From: Saccharicrinis carchari
GTDB lineage: Bacteria > Bacteroidota > Bacteroidia > Bacteroidales > Marinilabiliaceae
Direction of reading: 5' to 3'
Assembly: GCF_900182605.1 (NCBI RefSeq)
Contig: NZ_FXTB01000006.1
Span: 124,001 to 188,000 of the forward strand
Length of the DNA stretch: 64,000 nt
Each line of letters begins with the position of its first letter. The stretch's first letter is position 1. Under the pieces are notes generated by a model that was given only the letters and a program-made list of their open reading frames with translations, made no database searches and was not told the DNA's origin. The translations under genes were made by a program, and so were the position numbers. Shown piece after piece: positions 35,770 to 47,380 of the stretch.

Positions 35770-37131
35770 TTAGCCGATGATATTAATCACCTCTTCAACC
35801 GATAAAAGTTGCTGCTCGCCACTGTGCATATTTTTAAGTGTTAGCTTGCCCTGCTGTATTTCATTTTCGCCGGCCATGGCCACAAAGGCGATTTCTTTTT
35901 TGTTGGCATAATTCATTTGCTTTCCCATTTTAGCTGCATCAGGATAAAGCTCGGCATTAATACCAGCGTTTCGAACCTTTTGCAGCGCTTGCAGAGAATA
36001 CATAGCTTCTCGCTGACCAAAATTCACAAACATCAAACGCGTAGAAACAATCGATTCTTTAGGATACAAATCCAATTGGTTCATCACATCGTATATACGA
36101 TCGGCACCAAACGAAATACCTACGCCTGATACGTTGCGCAAACCAAATACGCCTGTTAAATCATCATACCGGCCACCACCAGTTATACTGCCAATTTCCA
36201 TATCCAGCGCTTTCACCTCAAAAATAGCTCCGGTATAATAATTTAGGCCACGTGCCAGGGTCAAATCCAATTCAACTTTTGTGGTCACATTAATATTTTG
36301 CAGATAACTAAATACGGTTTCCATTTCCGCTACCCCTTTTAGGCCTGTTTCCGAAGCTTTAAGAACAGTTTTTAAAGTATCGAGTTTTTGCTGATTGGTT
36401 CCGGAAAGATTAATAATAGGCTGTAACTTATCCACCGCTTCGCGAGGTAATCCTTTCTGAATTAACTCATCGTTCACTTTTTGAATACCAATTTTATCCA
36501 ACTTGTCTATAGCCACAGTGATGTCAACAATTTTATCCGCCTGCCCTATGATATCCGCAATTCCGCTCAAGATCTTCCGATTGTTCATCTTAACCAACAC
36601 ATTAATTTTGAGCGCTTTGTACACATCATCTACAATTTGTATAAGCTCTACCTCATTTATTAAGGAGTTAGAGCCAACCACATCCACATCGCATTGATAA
36701 AACTCGCGGTAACGTCCTTTTTGCGGCCTGTCGGCTCGCCATACGGGTTGCATCTGGTAACGCTTAAACGGAAAAGTTATGTTGTTTTGGTGCTGCACTA
36801 CAAAACGGGCAAATGGAACGGTAAGATCGTAACGAAGTCCTTTATCCGCAATTTGTGTGGTAGTTTTAATTGAGTTTTTTTCCTTTAAGGCATCAATATC
36901 TGCTTTGGCCAAAAAATCTCCCGAATTCAATATCTTAAAAAGCAGCTTATCCCCCTCTTCGCCGTATTTTCCCATTAATGTGGATAAGTTTTCCATGGCA
37001 GGCGTTTCGATAGGCTGATAACCATACTTTAAAAAAATTGCTTTAATGCTATCAAAAATATAATTCCGTTTTGCCATTTCAACTGGCGTAAAATCTCTTG
37101 TTCCTTTTGGTATAGCGGGTTTTTGAGCCAT
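35770..37131 (-). CDS. hisS: Histidyl-tRNA synthetase
   Basis: 453-residue class II aminoacyl-tRNA synthetase. Motifs are KGTRDFTP at the N-terminus, LTVPFARFV, the motif 2 region [20 protein letters not shown], the histidine-specific [14 protein letters not shown], and motif 3 [13 protein letters not shown]-like ([11 protein letters not shown]). A C-terminal anticodon-binding domain is present. It is preceded by a good -7 box. hutH follows downstream. Confidence 0.96.
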
Positions 37132-37156
37132 AGTATTTATTTTTATTTTAGAGGCG

Positions 37157-37164
37157 CAAAGTTA
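37157..37164 (-). promoter_or_regulatory. -7 box of hisS(-hutH)
   Basis: Minus-strand TAACTTTG is an exact TAnnTTTG match, 25 bp before the hisS ATG. It is followed by GCG, as at several other start regions in this window. Confidence 0.5.
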
Positions 37165-37341
37165 TTTATTTTTTTAAACTTACGTAATCCTATAATAGCA
37201 AGTACAAGCAGCAATAATTTCCATCACGTCTCCTTATCGTATACGGCTACAGTATTTCATCGCCTAAATAGCGTTATCTACAAACAAAACAGCACCTTTT
37301 GCCACATACTTTTAACCATTTTACTTATTGCAAGTAAAAAT

Positions 37342-38478
37342 ATGTACGAAATAGAATCTAAGAATGATGAGAATTCCAAAAAAGAATATTACTCGATGGA
37401 TACTGGTAAAATATTATTAATAGGAAAAGATTATTGTAATTTGGAACTATTGGAACACCAGTTGATGTCCTTTAGCGAAGAGTGGCGTATAAAAGTAAAA
37501 TTATTTCATGATTCGGTGTACGAATTGAACAATACACATCACGATTTGGTGATTATAGATTTTGGGGGGTCACCTGAAAAACTATTAAAGAAAATAGAAA
37601 TCGTAAAGAAATCGCATCAAAATCACAATACACCGATACTTGTATGCTTTGTAGAAAAAAGTGCTAAACTAATTAAAACAATGCTTGAAGCAGGAGCACT
37701 GGATTTTATACAAAAACCTTTTAAGCCCATTGAATTATTTGCACGTGTGCGCACCGCCCTTATTTTATCCAGTACCGTAAAAAAGTTAAACCATCAGGCT
37801 GATGTTATCAGGGAAAGTCAAAATAAAGTAAACGAAATAATATCGGGTCTGTTACCCAAAAAAATCATTGATGAGCTGACCGTTTCGGGCGAATCAAGAC
37901 CAAAAAAATACCGGGAAGCTTCGGTGCTATTTGTGGACCTGGTTGATTTTACAAAAAAATCAACCACGCTGGCACCCAAAATATTAATTGACGAACTAAC
38001 CCAGATTTTTAATGCTTTTGATTCCATTATTAAAAAAAATGGATGTACGCGTATAAAAACAATGGGAGATGGCTATTTGGCTGTTTCAGGAATTCCCACT
38101 CCACATAAACAACATGCCGTTAAATTAATACAAACAGCTATTGATATGAGAGCGTATCTATCCCAAAGGAATGAAAGCAATGCGGTAAAATGGGAATTAA
38201 AAATCGGAATTGATTCGGGCGAAGTAATAGGCAGTATACTGGGTACAAATAATTTTTTGTTCGATATTTTTGGCGACACAGTAAATACTGCAGCACGGAT
38301 GGAAAAGACTTGCGCCCCCAACCAAATCAACATTGGTATGCGCACGTATTTATCTACGCGTGATAAGTTCCGATACATAGAGCGCTTACCCAATGACGTT
38401 AAGGGGCTGGGAGTAAAGAATATGTATTATTTAAAGTCAAAGATAAACAGTTCCCATTTGAATAGATGGCAACAATAG
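37342..38478 (+). CDS. Receiver-adenylate cyclase protein with degenerate receiver
   Basis: 378 residues from the ATG at 37342; an upstream ATG would overlap hisS and add unrelated sequence, and the ATG at 37396 is a further option. The N-terminal receiver keeps an Asp at the phosphorylation place (D73, LVIIDFGG) and the Lys (IQKPF) but lacks the acidic Asp-Asp pair (LLIGKD instead of LLVDD), so phosphorylation is doubtful. A short coiled linker (GLLPKKIIDEL) leads to a class III cyclase domain with metal ligands D199 and D243, adenine-selecting K239 and D308, and N315 and R319. All catalytic residues for cAMP formation are present. It is the first of a tandem pair and starts 58 bp before its paralogue. 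Confidence 0.88.
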   Translation: MYEIESKNDENSKKEYYSMDTGKILLIGKDYCNLELLEHQLMSFSEEWRIKVKLFHDSVYELNNTHHDLVIIDFGGSPEKLLKKIEIVKKSHQNHNTPILVCFVEKSAKLIKTMLEAGALDFIQKPFKPIELFARVRTALILSSTVKKLNHQADVIRESQNKVNEIISGLLPKKIIDELTVSGESRPKKYREASVLFVDLVDFTKKSTTLAPKILIDELTQIFNAFDSIIKKNGCTRIKTMGDGYLAVSGIPTPHKQHAVKLIQTAIDMRAYLSQRNESNAVKWELKIGIDSGEVIGSILGTNNFLFDIFGDTVNTAARMEKTCAPNQINIGMRTYLSTRDKFRYIERLPNDVKGLGVKNMYYLKSKINSSHLNRWQQ

Positions 38479-38536: not shown

Positions 38537-39634
38537 ATGACTCCTTCTTCGTTGAAAATACTGTTGGTAGATGATATGGCAATTATTTTGGACATCATCA
38601 TATTACATTTGGATACCATGAACCAGGATTTCACCTACCTGAAGGCCAATGATGGAAGAAGTGCATGTAAAATTGCACAGCAGTCGAAGCCTGACTTAAT
38701 ACTGATGGATTGGGAGATGCCCAAAATGAATGGAATTGATGCCTTGATGTTGATGAAGAAAAATGAATCCATCAAAGATATTCCTGTTATTATCATGTCC
38801 AGTTTTACAGATGTAAGAAAGGCACTTGAAGCTGGCGCAGTTGACTATATAAAAAAACCAATAGACCCCACAGAACTTATTGCTCGTGTTCAATCCGCCA
38901 TTAACTTAACACAATCGTTTAAAGCGTTGATTGAAAAACAAGAGGAACTGGAATTGGAACGACAAAAAGTAGAACGAATATTAAAAGGCTTACTACCTCC
39001 TAAAATTCTTGAGGAGATAAAGGAAACCGGCAATTCAAAACCCAAACGATACAAAAATGCCACGGTGATGTTTACCGACTTAGTTGGTTTTACCGCAAAA
39101 ACCACTTCTATGTCGCCTAAAAGATTAATTAATGAGTTAAATGATATATTCTCTTCATTTGATAAAATAATTACAAAAAACAGATGTACCCGTATCAAGA
39201 CTATTGGAGATGCCTACCTTGTTGCTTCGGGGCTCCCGGAAGAGGACGAGAATCACGCTAGCAACATTATCCGGGCAGCAATTGAGTTTCGTCAGTTTAT
39301 TCTGGAGCGGAACATGTTGAGTTCGATAAAATGGGAAATTACCACAGGCATTAATAGCGGTGAAATAGTTGGTAGTTTAATTGGACTTGAAAATTATCTT
39401 TTTGATATTTTTGGAGAAAATGTAAATACAGCCTCACGCATACAACACCAATGTTCGCCAATGGATATCGCCGTAAGCACTTCTACTTATGAATTAACAA
39501 GTGAGGATTTTATTTTTGAAAAACAAGGTGTTGTGAGCCTAAAAGGCATGAATAAAATGGAGATTTATAATGTGATGAATGTTTACTCTAATCTTGAGCT
39601 TTCAAAAGTGTGCAAAAATTTTGATTTATACTGA
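38537..39634 (+). CDS. Response regulator-adenylate cyclase
   Basis: 365 residues. The receiver is intact: D12/D13 (LLVDD), phosphoacceptor D58 (LILMDWEMP), S88 and K107 (YIKKP). A coiled linker of about 40 residues (EKQEELELERQKVERIL) ends in GLLPPKILEEI and joins a class III cyclase with D181, K221, D225, D290, N297 and R301, the full set for ATP cyclisation. Phosphorylation by an unknown kinase should set cAMP output. It is clearly a paralogue of the gene before it; one of the two has kept receiver chemistry and the other seems to have lost it. Confidence 0.92.
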   Translation: MTPSSLKILLVDDMAIILDIIILHLDTMNQDFTYLKANDGRSACKIAQQSKPDLILMDWEMPKMNGIDALMLMKKNESIKDIPVIIMSSFTDVRKALEAGAVDYIKKPIDPTELIARVQSAINLTQSFKALIEKQEELELERQKVERILKGLLPPKILEEIKETGNSKPKRYKNATVMFTDLVGFTAKTTSMSPKRLINELNDIFSSFDKIITKNRCTRIKTIGDAYLVASGLPEEDENHASNIIRAAIEFRQFILERNMLSSIKWEITTGINSGEIVGSLIGLENYLFDIFGENVNTASRIQHQCSPMDIAVSTSTYELTSEDFIFEKQGVVSLKGMNKMEIYNVMNVYSNLELSKVCKNFDLY

Positions 39635-41519: not shown

Positions 41520-42371
41520 TTAATTCTTTCCCATAGCTTTAAAATCTTTAGCTAACAAACCATCTCGTTTTTTAAGGCTCACCATATGCCAATCGAAATA
41601 ATAAAACTGCGAATCGTTCGCACCTATAATTATTTTATAACAACGGGCTTTAAACTTAGTACCTTCAGGTCCTACCTTGTGTAAAAAAACAACATCAGGA
41701 TCCTCTTTTTCAATAGCTTCGGCAATCTTCTCTTGCGAAACAATTTGCACCGCATACGGATACACCGCTTCTATTTTATTTATGGTATTTACATCAGGTG
41801 CCAAATCCTCCTTTACAACATACAATATTTTATTACTTAAACTCTTTACATTTTTATTGTAATACTTAAACATATTATTGCTGATGATTTTAGGCTCACG
41901 ATTTACCAACTCAACGTGGTCTTGCATAAACCTTATAAATCCTTCCATTTTATATGCATAACTATCGTCCTCCACGCGTACGTAGGATAAGGGAATGGAA
42001 CACAAATCGGGCATTTCGGTTATCGACTTTACATCTTTGCCCATCAATAGGCTAACAAAAGTGTATCGCGCCTTGGTTTTGTCCCTGTCGAAAGTTACCG
42101 TTGAAGTTACAATAAATGAATAGGAAGGGTCACGTCGCTTCTCTTCAAATTCAGCCTGCGAAATCACTTCGTAATCGGTGATGTTCCATATTCTCGGCAT
42201 CACTTTTTTAATCATAAAGTTAAAATCCGACATTGGATTTTCATCTAATACCACAAAAGTTTTGGTGTTTAAAAAATCTTTATAGTCCTTTGGCGTTGGA
42301 AGGTGCTTTTGCGCATTGGCAGCTCCGGCAAAAAACAGAAACAGCAACAGGTGTATAAATAAATGCTTCAT
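41520..42371 (-). CDS. Exported protein of unknown function
   Basis: 283 residues with a cleavable signal peptide (about 1-20, ending AGAANAQ). The mature part contains alternating beta-strands and helices, with two possibly related halves: FVVLDENPMSDFNFMI followed by KKVMPRIW, and ILYVVKEDLAPDVN followed by INKIEAVYPYAV. Each strand is followed by a helix and a strand reading YEVISQAEFEE or VQIVSQEKIAEAIE. That looks like an internal duplication of a roughly 60-residue unit. No catalytic motif. It forms a single unit between ettA and the divergent degenerate kinase gene. Confidence 0.75.
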   Translation of the reverse strand: MKHLFIHLLLFLFFAGAANAQKHLPTPKDYKDFLNTKTFVVLDENPMSDFNFMIKKVMPRIWNITDYEVISQAEFEEKRRDPSYSFIVTSTVTFDRDKTKARYTFVSLLMGKDVKSITEMPDLCSIPLSYVRVEDDSYAYKMEGFIRFMQDHVELVNREPKIISNNMFKYYNKNVKSLSNKILYVVKEDLAPDVNTINKIEAVYPYAVQIVSQEKIAEAIEKEDPDVVFLHKVGPEGTKFKARCYKIIIGANDSQFYYFDWHMVSLKKRDGLLAKDFKAMGKN

Positions 42372-42615
42372 TAATTTGTTTTTATAATTAGTGTAATAAA
42401 TGGTTGGTATTAGACAAAACTGTAGATTTATTAGAATATTGTCAGCAATACTATTTTTATAATAATTTTATACTATATTTCCCGCGTTCGTAAATATCCT
42501 AACGCAGCATAATTGGAAACCACCTTATACGATATGCCGCATAAATAGTTATACTGATTAGGGAAATATTTCACACGAATATAACAGTTATTATTGCTTT
42601 ATACTTAATTTACAT

Positions 42616-44355
42616 ATGAAATCTATCAATAAATTTCTATTGCTCTTTGCCTTTGATCACGATGAAAAACTTGACGTTGAAACCCAAGCTTTTTTGTTAC
42701 TATCAAATGTTTTAAACTTTTTTTTATTTGTTATTGTCTTTGTAGAAGGAATCATATCTTTATTGGAAGAGAAACTTTTTTTTGCCGGCACATTGTTGTC
42801 TCTTAGTGTATTATTTGCATTTAATTACCTCTACATCAGCCGACGCCCTAACATAGCATTATATAATAGGTTATTATTTCTATTTATTATACTCACTTTT
42901 GTTTTCTTTATCATATTTGGTGGTTCCACCGGAGTCAACATCGTTTGGGTAGGTAGCTTTCCCTTTATTGCGATCAATCTTTTTGGACGAAAAGCTGGCT
43001 CATTGTATTCATTAGGGATGTTTGTTTTTATTTTAATTGATTTTTTATTATTGAGCAAAATCATTCCTCTGGCCCAACATTACACACTAAATATGAGTGT
43101 TCTTATTTCTATTTATGTGTTGTTTTCATTTATTTTGGCTTACACCCTTAAGTTTGTTTTTGCCCAGGTACTCTTCAGTAAGGAACGGGCAATGATAAAC
43201 TCGCAAAACAATCGTACATCAAGAGACGAACAAATTGCCGATTTATCCAGGCAAATACGTACCCCTTTAAGCAACATTACAGGCATCCTGGATATCTTGG
43301 GTAAAACAAACTTAAGCGACGATCAGCGCGATTACATCAATACCATACATGCCTCGGCCAATAATTTGGTCAATGTAGTTTCCAATATGGTATCTACAAC
43401 AAAATCAAATGAGCTTCGCATTCAGGAAGAAAAAATAAGTTTCAACCTATTTTCTACACTAAACAATACGATTAGGCTATTTTCCGAAAACAACAGCAAA
43501 CAAAAGTTCAGCCTTTCGTTTTCGGCAGAAGTCCCTTCTAACATGACGGGTAATGCTATTAAAACAAAGCAAATTTTTCTTAACATCTTAAACTCCATTG
43601 CTAAATACAACCTGTCCGAAAACAAAGAAATTACTATTGAGGTGAGCCGAACCAACAACATGCCTGGTACCCTTGAATTATTATTTAAAATTACCGCTAC
43701 CGGCAATATCCCTTTCCCTAAGGAGTACCGATCCGACGAGTCGCTTTATGGTACCGACATATTATTGCTAAACACCTCCAAGCACATTCAGTTTTTAGAG
43801 TTGGGGCTAACCCAGAAGTTGATAGAACAAGACGGTCATTTGTTATCCATAAAGCCGGAAGCAGACAAAACCACTTTTGAATTTGGCATTACCTTTAAGG
43901 AAAGTACGCAAAGCTATTCGGTTAAAAACATAAAAGAAAAAGTTTCAAATAGCACCTCGTTCTACAAACCTTCGGTTGATATTAAAGATGCTAATATTTT
44001 GTTGGTGGAAGACAATTTCAGCAACCAGCAAATAATTATTTTATACATTAAAAACCTGGTAAATAAGATTGAGGTAGCCTACAACGGTAAGGAAGCGCTC
44101 GATAAGTTTGGTAAAACCAAGTACGATCTGATTTTGATGGACGTTCAAATGCCCATTATGGATGGGCTCAAGGCAACAAAGAAAATTAGAGAGATTGAAA
44201 AGAGTACAAACACACATATACCTATCATAGCCATTACAGCCAACGCTTTTCCTGAAGACAAAGAACGGTGCATAGCCAGCGGAATGGACGATTATATAAG
44301 CAAACCCTTTCAAACGGAAGAGTTGGTGAGCAAATTAAAAGCCCATCTAAAATAA
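42616..44355 (+). CDS. Membrane hybrid histidine kinase-like protein, kinase core degenerate
   Basis: 579 residues. About six membrane helices fill residues 25-190. The dimerisation helix then reads SRQIRTPLSNITG where active kinases have SHEIRTP: the phosphoacceptor His is Arg (R212). In the ATP-binding domain the N-box is NILNSIAKY (key Asn is Ser), and the DxGxG box is replaced by ATGNIP (A361), with no clear G2 box. By contrast the C-terminal receiver (459-579) is complete: E465/D466, phosphoacceptor D509 (LILMDVQMP), T/A switch region AITAN and K563. It probably works as a sensor or scaffold whose receiver is phosphorylated by another kinase. The Arg codon is AGG, two changes from His, so a simple read error is unlikely. 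Confidence 0.88.
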   Translation: MKSINKFLLLFAFDHDEKLDVETQAFLLLSNVLNFFLFVIVFVEGIISLLEEKLFFAGTLLSLSVLFAFNYLYISRRPNIALYNRLLFLFIILTFVFFIIFGGSTGVNIVWVGSFPFIAINLFGRKAGSLYSLGMFVFILIDFLLLSKIIPLAQHYTLNMSVLISIYVLFSFILAYTLKFVFAQVLFSKERAMINSQNNRTSRDEQIADLSRQIRTPLSNITGILDILGKTNLSDDQRDYINTIHASANNLVNVVSNMVSTTKSNELRIQEEKISFNLFSTLNNTIRLFSENNSKQKFSLSFSAEVPSNMTGNAIKTKQIFLNILNSIAKYNLSENKEITIEVSRTNNMPGTLELLFKITATGNIPFPKEYRSDESLYGTDILLLNTSKHIQFLELGLTQKLIEQDGHLLSIKPEADKTTFEFGITFKESTQSYSVKNIKEKVSNSTSFYKPSVDIKDANILLVEDNFSNQQIIILYIKNLVNKIEVAYNGKEALDKFGKTKYDLILMDVQMPIMDGLKATKKIREIEKSTNTHIPIIAITANAFPEDKERCIASGMDDYISKPFQTEELVSKLKAHLK

Positions 44356-44434
44356 AAGCGTAGCATTTTTTGTTATTGACCGCAGGCCGCTATAAACCGC
44401 TCCATACAATTATTTCAGTGTGATTATACAAAAC

Positions 44435-47380
44435 CTAAAATAGCGGGTTTGACACGGAAGCAAGACCCTTTTTACCATTTATTTTAACCAATAGGGGCTT
44501 ACTGAATCGAACGTGTTTTATCCATTCATCCTCATATACCGCCGGTTGTTGTAGCAAAAGAGATTCGTTATAATAATCACTGCCTGCAAACCTGTTTACC
44601 GTTAAATATCCCACACGCAAAGAGGTGAGGTTTTGAAAAAAGTGCGTTCCCTGGCTCGGATCAACGGAGAACCCATCCATGGCCGTCTCCACAATAAGTC
44701 GTGCACCCGATATTTGAGCCCACTTAACCGGAACCCCCAGCCAGGGATCTTGCGAGCCCCACCTACCGGGCCCTATTAAAATGTAATTGGTATCTTTTTC
44801 CAATAAGGTACTGTTTATTTTTTCTATAACAGGTACCATATTTATCATATTAGCTGCCGAGAACCCATTGGTTTTAACAAAAACCACGTCGCAAATATCA
44901 TTAATTACACCGTTGCCCAATGCCGATGTTGAATAAATCAACTGCTTTGCCGGATCCAGGCTTTCAACCTCCTCTCCAATAGCCTCTTCGAGCTCTACTA
45001 TAGGTCTTATTTGAAGCAAATAAAATATTGGTTTGGCATTGGGTATTTGCAGGTCTACCGCAAACTCTATCTCTACCGGTTGATTCATTTTATCTTGCCC
45101 CAACTCCAAAAGACGTTGCAGCATACTTGCCAATGGCAATGCATCATGCTTTAAGATATTGGCAAAGGTAACCAGAGGAATACCTTCCCTGCCCACACCA
45201 TCGCGTATAATATTATTTTGATGGTCGAAAACGGAGCCCAACCATTTTAAGGAACCATCCTTAAGTGCTGTCCGAATACTAAGGCGTTGCAGGTTAATAC
45301 CATCATTTACCGAAGGCTTAAAAGTGGTATTATCCATATCCAGCGCAAAAAATTCCTTTTGCGTATCTTTAATAGTAAACTCTGTACTGGATAATTGTAA
45401 TGCTTTTTTAGGGTATTTGGGCGAAAAACGCAGCGAAGTTCCTCCCTCCACAATCTGTTTACCCAAGCCAAGCGCTACGTTAACAATACCATCCTCAGTT
45501 TTTTCGGGTGCAATGGGATAAAAGTTGATCGACCGAGCTACGCCCGATATCGTAGGATAAAACCGATTATTATGCTGTTGACCTACCACTTCTTGCAATA
45601 CAATGCCCATTTTTTCCTCATCAATAATATTCATTGTGGCCCGCATGTAGGCTTTGCTCGATTTAAAGTAAACCGAGGCGTACACGCACTTTATAGCATC
45701 GCTTATTTGTTTCAGCACCACTTCCACTTCGTCGGTATTAGAAACCATGTAAGTAGAATAGATTCCGGCAAAAGGTTGGTAATGGCTATCCTCTAACACA
45801 CTAGAGGAACGTATAGCAATAGGATTATCTATAACAGAAATAAATTTACGCAGATACAAATGAGCTTTAGGCGGTAATTTGGATTGAACAAAACAATCTA
45901 ATATCTCCTCATCAGATTTATCCGAGAGTGCTATCTGATACAAGTTGTTCGACTCCATAAACTGTTCAAAAACATCAGTAGCAATAACCACGGTACGCGG
46001 TATGGTAATATCCAGATTGTCAAAATAAAGATAGTCTGCTTTTTTAGAAAGTACGGTATTTAAAAACGCCAGCCCTCGTGCTTTACCTCCAATAGACCCC
46101 TCCCCGATGCGCGCAAATTTTACCAACCTATCGTAATTCTTAATGTCAAAAGTAGCAATAACACCTCTGTTTTTTGATATTCTAAAATTTACGATCGTAT
46201 CATAGATAAATTGCTTTGTGGCCTCGAGTGATTCAAAATCGTCGACACTCAAGCTTTTAATCACATCAGATATGGCAAAAAGTGCCCTGGCTTTAAGCCA
46301 TTTTGATACATGGTCCCGTTGAAAGTGATACCGCAATGAATCGTCAGGCAGTACAAACAGTTGCTCCTGCAATTGTTTTAAATTGCTTACTCTGCCCACT
46401 TCACATTGTGTTACGGGATCGGTAAATATAAAATCGCCAAAGGCCAGGTATATTTTTAAAAATTGTTTCAATTCCTGCAAAAGGCTTTTTGAATATTTAT
46501 GTAAAAAACCCACCCTTATAGATTTAGCCACTTCTGCCACCGAAATGTCAGACGACTGTAATAAAAAGGGCATGTAAGGGTCGTCCTTTTTAACCATTTC
46601 GGCCAATTCAATCCCCGCATGGTTATATTTTTCGTTGTTTTTGGTAAAAGTAACATCTGATATTACTCCCAATAGATTAGCTCTGTATTTTTTATAAAGG
46701 TGTACGGCTTCTGTATAATTACGTGCCAATAATATTTTAGGCCTACCACGCATTCGCATCATCTTTTGATGTTCATTAAGCGCTTCGCTCATAAATTTTT
46801 TCGACTGGTTAAACACAATCCGATAGATGATAGGAAGGTAACTGGAATAGTAGCGTATAGAGTCCTCAACCAATAAAATACACTGTACCCCTACGGTTAA
46901 AATATCGTGAGCGGCATTCATCTCATCTTCAATGAGCTTAATGATGGCCACCAGTATATCGGCATTACCCAGCCAGCAGAACACATAATCGATGGCACTG
47001 GTATCCTCCTGCGATAATTTAATACTCACCTCTCGCGAAAAGGGTGTTAAAACAACGATGGGAATATCCGGATAGTCATTTTTTATTTGTTTGGCCAGGC
47101 AAAAAGGATTCATGCCTCCAACACTTAACATGGAGATAATTAAATCAATTGGTTCGTTTTGTACTATGCGCAGGGCATCTTCTGCATTTGTTACCTGTAT
47201 AAACCGGGGTGGGTAACGTAGGTTTAACGATACATACTCGTTAAAAATTTGTTCTTCTATCCTACCATCTTCCTCCAATAAAAAAGCGTCGTAACTGCTC
47301 GAAATCAACAGTACCGACTGGATACGTTTTTGCATTAACTTATTGAACTGTGTATCTGTAAATGAGCTTGCGGAATCCAT
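44435..47380 (-). CDS. Two-receiver ATP-grasp protein (PEP synthase-type nucleotide-binding domain)
   Basis: 981 residues in three parts. A first receiver-like domain (20-150) has Met at the Asp place (DLIISM, M84) and Ser-Ser instead of the acidic pair. A second receiver (165-310) keeps E172/D173 (LLVEDS), D242 (VISDVTF) and K295 and carries a long insertion. The PEP/pyruvate-binding ATP-grasp domain (about 425-830) has EGSIGGKARGLAFL, IPRTVVIATDVFEQFM and IAIRSSSVLEDSHYQPFAG. The C-terminus has IGPGRWGSQDPWLG. The phosphohistidine (GGxTSH-type) and PEP-barrel domains of PEP synthase are missing, so it cannot make PEP in the usual way. It probably phosphorylates or transfers phosphate to an unknown partner. 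Known in Bacteroidota as an uncharacterised family. Confidence 0.87.
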   Translation of the reverse strand: MDSASSFTDTQFNKLMQKRIQSVLLISSSYDAFLLEEDGRIEEQIFNEYVSLNLRYPPRFIQVTNAEDALRIVQNEPIDLIISMLSVGGMNPFCLAKQIKNDYPDIPIVVLTPFSREVSIKLSQEDTSAIDYVFCWLGNADILVAIIKLIEDEMNAAHDILTVGVQCILLVEDSIRYYSSYLPIIYRIVFNQSKKFMSEALNEHQKMMRMRGRPKILLARNYTEAVHLYKKYRANLLGVISDVTFTKNNEKYNHAGIELAEMVKKDDPYMPFLLQSSDISVAEVAKSIRVGFLHKYSKSLLQELKQFLKIYLAFGDFIFTDPVTQCEVGRVSNLKQLQEQLFVLPDDSLRYHFQRDHVSKWLKARALFAISDVIKSLSVDDFESLEATKQFIYDTIVNFRISKNRGVIATFDIKNYDRLVKFARIGEGSIGGKARGLAFLNTVLSKKADYLYFDNLDITIPRTVVIATDVFEQFMESNNLYQIALSDKSDEEILDCFVQSKLPPKAHLYLRKFISVIDNPIAIRSSSVLEDSHYQPFAGIYSTYMVSNTDEVEVVLKQISDAIKCVYASVYFKSSKAYMRATMNIIDEEKMGIVLQEVVGQQHNNRFYPTISGVARSINFYPIAPEKTEDGIVNVALGLGKQIVEGGTSLRFSPKYPKKALQLSSTEFTIKDTQKEFFALDMDNTTFKPSVNDGINLQRLSIRTALKDGSLKWLGSVFDHQNNIIRDGVGREGIPLVTFANILKHDALPLASMLQRLLELGQDKMNQPVEIEFAVDLQIPNAKPIFYLLQIRPIVELEEAIGEEVESLDPAKQLIYSTSALGNGVINDICDVVFVKTNGFSAANMINMVPVIEKINSTLLEKDTNYILIGPGRWGSQDPWLGVPVKWAQISGARLIVETAMDGFSVDPSQGTHFFQNLTSLRVGYLTVNRFAGSDYYNESLLLQQPAVYEDEWIKHVRFSKPLLVKINGKKGLASVSNPLF

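Follow-up and report, generated by a model that had tools for sequence, protein, structure and literature searches.

The gene at positions 42616-44355 of the analysed stretch of Saccharicrinis carchari DNA (64,000 nucleotides, hereafter the window; source genome of 4.64 Mb in 31 contigs) encodes a protein built like a hybrid histidine kinase, in which an earlier note, made from the sequence alone, had found the kinase core disabled and the receiver intact. This raises the question of whether such a protein is a local mutant or a member of a maintained family and, in the latter case, of what a receiver attached to a dead kinase could serve for.

Domains and altered catalytic residues

The reading frame is open from the ATG at 42616 to the stop codon at 44353-44355, as found in the list of open reading frames and in the translation. 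The features of the gene are as follows.

42616..44355, + strand: pseudo-hybrid histidine kinase, 579 aa (open reading frame and translation, Pfam, homologues)
42616..43179, + strand: N-terminal membrane domain, residues 1-188, with about six predicted transmembrane helices, weakly MASE6-like (AF2 helices, MASE6 matches)
43213..43398, + strand: HisKA/DHp hairpin, residues 200-261, with R212 for His, Q213 for Glu and T216 kept (Pfam, alignments)
43408..43911, + strand: pseudo-HATPase (CA) domain, residues 265-432, with S327 for the N-box Asn and without DxGxG and GxGLGL (motifs, AF2, fold match)
43990..44352, + strand: intact receiver, residues 459-579, with D466, D509, T541 and K563 (Pfam, alignments)

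The residues on which the earlier note had based its claim were all confirmed in the translation: the H-box is S211-R212-Q213-I214-R215-T216-P217 with R212 in the place of His, the N-box Asn is replaced by S327, the DxGxG box is replaced by A361-T-G-N-I-P366, and D466, D509 and K563 of the receiver are present. We found one further kinase lesion that it had not listed, the loss of the Glu after the His place, where Gln213 stands. In the Pfam search, HisKA (46.0 bits; cut-off, 26.9) and Response_reg (95.1 bits; cut-off, 30.2; one stretch, residues 461-574) passed, and no HATPase_c match was obtained at E ≤ 1 with the whole protein; the isolated CA domain scored 12.8 bits, which is under the cut-off of 26.4. 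Thus, as regards the domains of a hybrid histidine kinase, HisKA and a receiver with both Asp, the Thr and the Lys are present, HATPase_c with its N, G1 and G2 boxes is absent, and the CA fold is predicted to be kept. MASE6 was matched by 11 of the 16 family members at E ≤ 0.1 (best, 3.8e-10), the present protein reaching just 0.02, and the whole-chain AF2 model places the helices of the membrane domain at residues 21-50, 54-72, 80-100, 108-113/115-123, 125-149 and 158 onward. Judged from its sequence, the protein falls under the definition of a pseudo-histidine kinase, that is, a histidine kinase homologue which lacks at least one histidine kinase function and is nevertheless maintained.

The loss of the His is above the base rate, HisKA domains without it amounting to 0.9% (722 of 76,471) in a published survey, according to the part of it consulted (PMC12632262). 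A PF00512 profile search of the genome gave 50 HisKA stretches at E ≤ 0.001, and an alignment of all 50 to a profile from 32 canonical ones indicated that the H-box has His in 49, the sole exception being the present protein. Change in the ATP boxes is not in itself unique in this genome, because two other proteins keep the His with damaged ATP boxes (L169 and L170) and two have an altered G1 box (L153 and L163). Two genes of this genome, L004:679-1848 and L005:697-1869 (both − strand), each directly follow a hybrid kinase gene of the same orientation and encode proteins of about 390 aa with an N-terminal receiver, a HisKA domain that keeps the His (SHELRTP and SHQINTP) and damaged ATP boxes; these receiver-DHp proteins may pass on or hydrolyse phosphate.

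Conservation and order of losses

In the homologue search, the nearest proteins of named relatives were those of Saccharicrinis, with 81% and 63% identity. A codon alignment of nine species of the genus (that of the window and eight others) indicated that residue 212 is Arg in all nine and that it is encoded by AGG in four, AGA in three, CGT in one and CGA in one. The mean pS among the nine was about 0.8, so that synonymous sites are saturated and no dN/dS could be obtained; Arg212 is, on this alignment, retained through synonymous change across the genus. The mean pN was lowest in the receiver (0.070), followed by the DHp (0.094), CA (0.142), TM (0.179) and linker (0.241) regions, and no internal stop was present in the nine full-length genus matches. 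Arg was also found in one further genus (L038, codon CGC), which fell in the same clade with an ultrafast bootstrap of 96 and an SH-aLRT of 95 in a careful tree of 47 rows.

To place these residues in the order, homologues were collected in two sets. The first, of 50 rows including the query, consisted of 57 loci from three homologue searches (30 + 12 + 15) minus eight repeated proteins; the last search contributed 15 of its 80 loci (≥36% identity), and the other 65 (≤33%, matching from residue 126 or later) were left out. The second, of 86 rows, was obtained by adding 45 loci (29 + 16 fetched, with five repeats) and dropping four, namely L127, L128, L129, which has Tyr at the His place and keeps the receiver, and L130, a canonical hybrid kinase. 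An order-wide search with the family profile gave matches at E ≤ 1e-80 in 72 of 295 genomes and full-length matches (start ≤30 and end ≥574 of the model) in 49 of 295, one of them with an internal TAG (G184); partial matches starting at about residue 80 or later were left out of the residue counts.

Position 212 was His in 30 of the 50 rows, Arg in 10, Tyr in seven, and Asn, Thr and Gln in one each; in the 86 homologues, the His place held His in 62, Tyr in 13, Arg in 10 and Asn in one. The next residue was Gln in 75, Asp in five, Glu in three, Lys in two and Asn in one, and the Thr at +4 (T216) was present in 83 of the 86, including all 62 that keep the His. The N-box position 327 was Ser in 40 and Asn in 23, and the G1 Asp was found in none. 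When the same patterns were applied to the other 49 HisKA proteins of the genome, DxGxG was found in 46 and GxGLGL in 36, whereas neither was found in any of the 86 homologues; the full N-box pattern was present in nine of the 86 and in 41 of the 49. Each of D466, D509, T541 and K563 of the receiver was present in 86/86; these homologues had, however, been chosen by a likeness that extends over the receiver, and this biases the set towards members with a good one. Mean conservation was 0.72 in DHp alpha1, 0.63 in DHp alpha2 and 0.43 in CA.

On the 86-row tree, which was built by a quick method with SH-aLRT only and gave long-branch warnings, Arg needs one change and Tyr five, three of them forced by the starred branches; for the four states His, Tyr, Arg and Asn the total is six changes. 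The G1 and G2 boxes are absent throughout, although the His survives in most members, which makes it most likely that the ATP site went first and that the His followed in several lineages; the persistence of the N-box Asn in numerous distant members indicates that the ATP site itself decayed stepwise. ATP-site loss is thus family-wide and, most likely, older than the loss of the His. The earlier note had taken the three changed sites together as a sign of selection for a non-catalytic sensor. One part of this stands, namely a dead kinase core with an intact receiver that has been long maintained (Arg212 genus-wide, the four receiver residues throughout, DxGxG nowhere); the sites did not change in one event, since homologues that still have the His are already without the ATP site and, in most cases, without the Glu. 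It had also considered a strain-specific mutation, to be revealed by orthologues with a normal His. Such orthologues exist outside the genus (62/86), yet they are also without the ATP-binding boxes, and, because of this and of the genus-wide Arg, Arg212 is not a strain mutation.

These alignments point to a real, conserved family of kinase-dead hybrid sensors within the known class of pseudo-histidine kinases; in the open-access literature searched, a description of this Bacteroidales family was not found. A single tree displays successive stages of kinase death: nearly all members are without the ATP boxes and the Glu, and the His disappeared afterwards, the receiver remaining whole and the Thr at the phosphatase position being nearly always kept. 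As an observation outside the 86, the dropped L127 and L128, from one genus (G012 and G030) and with 24 and 22% identity, have Thr and Gln at the His place and have lost the two Asp and the Lys of the receiver; they are possibly an end state without phosphorylation.

Predicted fold and possible roles

The whole-chain AF2 model was mediocre (pLDDT 73.4, pTM 0.39), and the CA domain was modelled alone because the whole-chain model matched receivers only among the best 50 matches listed. The CA model, for which the input was 16 family sequences with no canonical kinase in the alignment, had a pLDDT of 75.7 and a pTM of 0.73, with a lid region (residues 374-391) under 50. With this model, ranks 1-11 in Foldseek were 11 RetS chains (entries 6dk7 and 6dk8; best E, 1.8e-12), and VIA gave Z scores of 17.4 for RetS (rmsd 3.7, 155 aligned), 17.2 for ETR1 (2.3, 142), 17.1 for GacS (2.5, 147), 17.0 for phytochrome A (2.8, 148) and 14.7 for DivL (4q20; 3.0, 142). 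RetS, ETR1, GacS and phytochrome A are thus tied at 17.0-17.4, with RetS having the largest rmsd (3.7 versus 2.3-2.8), and in this model the tie indicates the kinase CA fold and not RetS function. With the family profile, GacS (7z8n, 1.3e-9) and RetS (2e-7) came first among the solved sequences of the PDB. The CA domain is accordingly modelled as a kinase CA fold minus the ATP-binding motifs.

We give a probability of about 0.5 to the reading that the protein is a RetS-like pseudo-hybrid kinase, the receiver of which takes phosphate from a partner kinase and so drains or buffers the pathway of the latter. RetS of Pseudomonas aeruginosa is described as having a degenerate HATPase and taking phosphate from GacS at D858 of its second receiver; it is also reported to dephosphorylate the GacS receiver via the Thr of its HExxT motif and to block GacS autophosphorylation (PMC5992135). 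The present protein resembles it in the degenerate HATPase, in the kept HisKA with Thr at +4 and in a receiver that, in RetS, accepts phosphate; it differs in having RQxxT (R212, Q213, T216) instead of HExxT and one receiver instead of two. By sequence, the parts for the kinase reaction (ATP boxes, catalytic Glu and here also the His) are gone, and the DHp hairpin, Thr216 and the whole receiver active site are kept. Because the kinase machinery is lost, the receiver is intact and this design is common to its relatives, the protein probably takes phosphate from other kinases instead of generating it itself. In the proposed mechanism, the six-helix membrane domain would sense something in or near the membrane, and phosphoryl groups would be passed to Asp509 by another kinase, from its phospho-His, or by an Hpt. 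The protein's own DHp, via Thr216, may speed the hydrolysis of these groups or of those on the receiver of the partner, so that the protein, probably in a hetero-complex with the partner kinase, would act as a drain or buffer of the partner pathway's phosphate under the control of the membrane domain.

The absence of ATP motifs and of the Glu, together with a kept Thr and a whole receiver, is what such a drain would be expected to need. In CrdS, E372Q is reported to abolish kinase but not phosphatase activity, H371A still lowers the half-life of CrdA~P from 53.5 to 2.6 min, and N375, at the +4 place of Asn or Thr, is required for phosphatase activity (PMC3510030). Counted against the drain are PleC H610A, which, as told in the same paper, indicates that His loss can also abolish phosphatase activity (PMC3510030), and the argument from His-loss frequencies against phosphatase as a general role of pseudo-kinases (PMC12632262). 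The conservation of T216 is weak evidence because HisKA domains often have Thr at +4, as seen in the 50 stretches of this genome. We also counted against the RetS-like reading that HATPase_c was matched weakly by 11 of the 16 family members at E ≤ 1 (best, 1.1e-5) and that L127 and L128 lost their receiver residues. Receivers of hybrid kinases are the subject of a further paper (PMC9981736). A wider proposal, which we hold to be doubtful, is that the order-wide Bacteroidales family is a self-emptying phosphate drain, in which phosphate from other kinases passes to the receiver and is hydrolysed by the DHp of the same protein. Once the ATP site was lost, the His would have become superfluous and given way to Arg a single time and to Tyr repeatedly, and Arg212 may now dock the acidic pocket of the receiver, holding DHp and receiver together.

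The same residues would also suit a phosphorylation-gated scaffold, a quite possible though less favoured explanation, in which the phosphorylation of D509 by another kinase reshapes the pseudo-kinase and so lets it bind and switch a partner kinase or another membrane protein, phosphate draining being irrelevant. DivL of Caulobacter, a kinase-dead regulator in a histidine kinase fold, has Tyr in place of the His and is not known to have a receiver; the present protein differs in its Arg, Tyr being the residue of 13 of the 86 homologues. It is in favour of a scaffold that DHp alpha1 and alpha2 are well conserved, compared with CA, in a catalytically dead protein, that the CA model also matches ETR1 and DivL, and that DivL is described as a catalytically inactive pseudo-kinase that toggles CckA (PMC12189002). 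Caulobacter CCNA_03265, which we liken to the present protein by its description, is likewise a hybrid kinase without the His that keeps the receiver Asp; it emerged from a screen for hyperadhesion, whose authors suggest that it may be fed by an Hpt, work as a heterodimer or use another His (PMC11481889). Plant ethylene receptors are also membrane receptors with a histidine kinase domain, with or without a receiver, and ETR1 is a top fold match of the CA model; they differ in the reported Ser/Thr kinase activity of subfamily II, in the ethylene-binding sensor and in the association with CTR1 (PMC3485614). Against a scaffold, no output partner is linked to the gene and the phosphate-sink reading fits the same facts; from sequence, drain and scaffold cannot be told apart. 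With homologues that naturally carry His, Arg or Tyr at the His place, it becomes testable whether a pseudo-histidine kinase acts as sink, phosphatase or scaffold.

The remaining explanations are far less probable. Autophosphorylation by way of an unusual ATP site or at another His, such as H245, would accord with the predicted CA fold and with the presence of H245 and H408 in all nine genus members, but it is very improbable given that DxGxG and GxGLGL are absent in 86/86 homologues, Gln stands in place of the Glu, the lid is modelled with low confidence, and H245 lies on the second helix and is His in just 31 of the 50 homologues. ChpT and Spo0B are DHp-type phosphotransferases between receivers, and such a role may hold for the 62 homologues that keep the His without DxGxG; with Arg throughout the genus, transfer via position 212 is impossible, which refutes this role for the present gene unless another His serves and leaves it hardly any probability. 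Equally improbable is a gene decaying under relaxed selection, for which the lost kinase motifs, the receiver residues lost in L127 and L128 and the internal TAG in one of the 49 full-length order matches could be cited; it is opposed by an Arg212 kept through four codons with synonymous differences near saturation, by a mean pN of 0.07-0.24 by region, by stop-free genus matches and by full length in 49 of the 295 order genomes.

Neighbouring genes and candidate partners

A partner for the favoured RetS-like reading was sought around the gene and in the genome; the neighbouring features are as follows.

41520..42371, − strand: divergent conserved neighbour (P0002), 283 aa, with a start that by eye resembles a signal peptide; no Pfam family above cut-off, one sub-threshold match
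37123-38478 and 38537-39634, + strand: tandem receiver-adenylate/guanylate cyclase genes, about 3 to 5.5 kb upstream of the pseudo-kinase gene
44435-47380, − strand: 981-aa protein with a partial receiver-like stretch and a PPDK_N domain, convergent to the pseudo-kinase gene

The window contains no other HisKA stretch by PF00512, which we counted against the RetS-like reading. The divergent neighbour lies within 1.5 kb of the kinase gene in 43 of 54 loci (36 of 47 minus seven repeat-protein loci) and has homologues in 45 of 61 related genomes, and this adjacency supports the orthology of the loci. As a partner it was rejected, since some genomes (e.g., G044, G045 and G054) have it but gave no full-length homologue of the pseudo-kinase, so that the link is positional only. 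A partner kinase sharing the membrane domain was not obtained either: 13 of the 21 genomes searched gave a single match each, and this was the homologue itself (in G010 a fragment at a contig end). As for Hpt donors, two in the genome exceed the cut-off and lie at C3:83.8-84.4 kb, on a contig other than that of the pseudo-kinase gene; a third falls below the cut-off. A promoter and terminator scan of 42360-44500 stayed at the level of shuffled sequence (11 versus 8.2 ± 2.5 and 1 versus 1.5, respectively).

The pseudo-kinase may have partners in the receiver-cyclases. The receiver of the first is matched weakly (32.4 bits) and by eye has no acidic pair, that of the second is matched strongly (85.8 bits), and in six of 12 related loci (L039-L050) the same ABC-F gene has homologues of one or both upstream of it. 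In seven of these 12, the place of the 981-aa PPDK_N gene downstream is taken by a gene for about 1100 aa with no match to the proteins of the window. Finally, a stand-alone receiver of about 129 aa with 48% identity to the receiver of the pseudo-kinase is encoded at G000:C3:140832-141179, and similar single-receiver genes (44-56% identity, frames of 129-155 aa) were observed in at least 27 of the 37 genomes of the taxonomic family.
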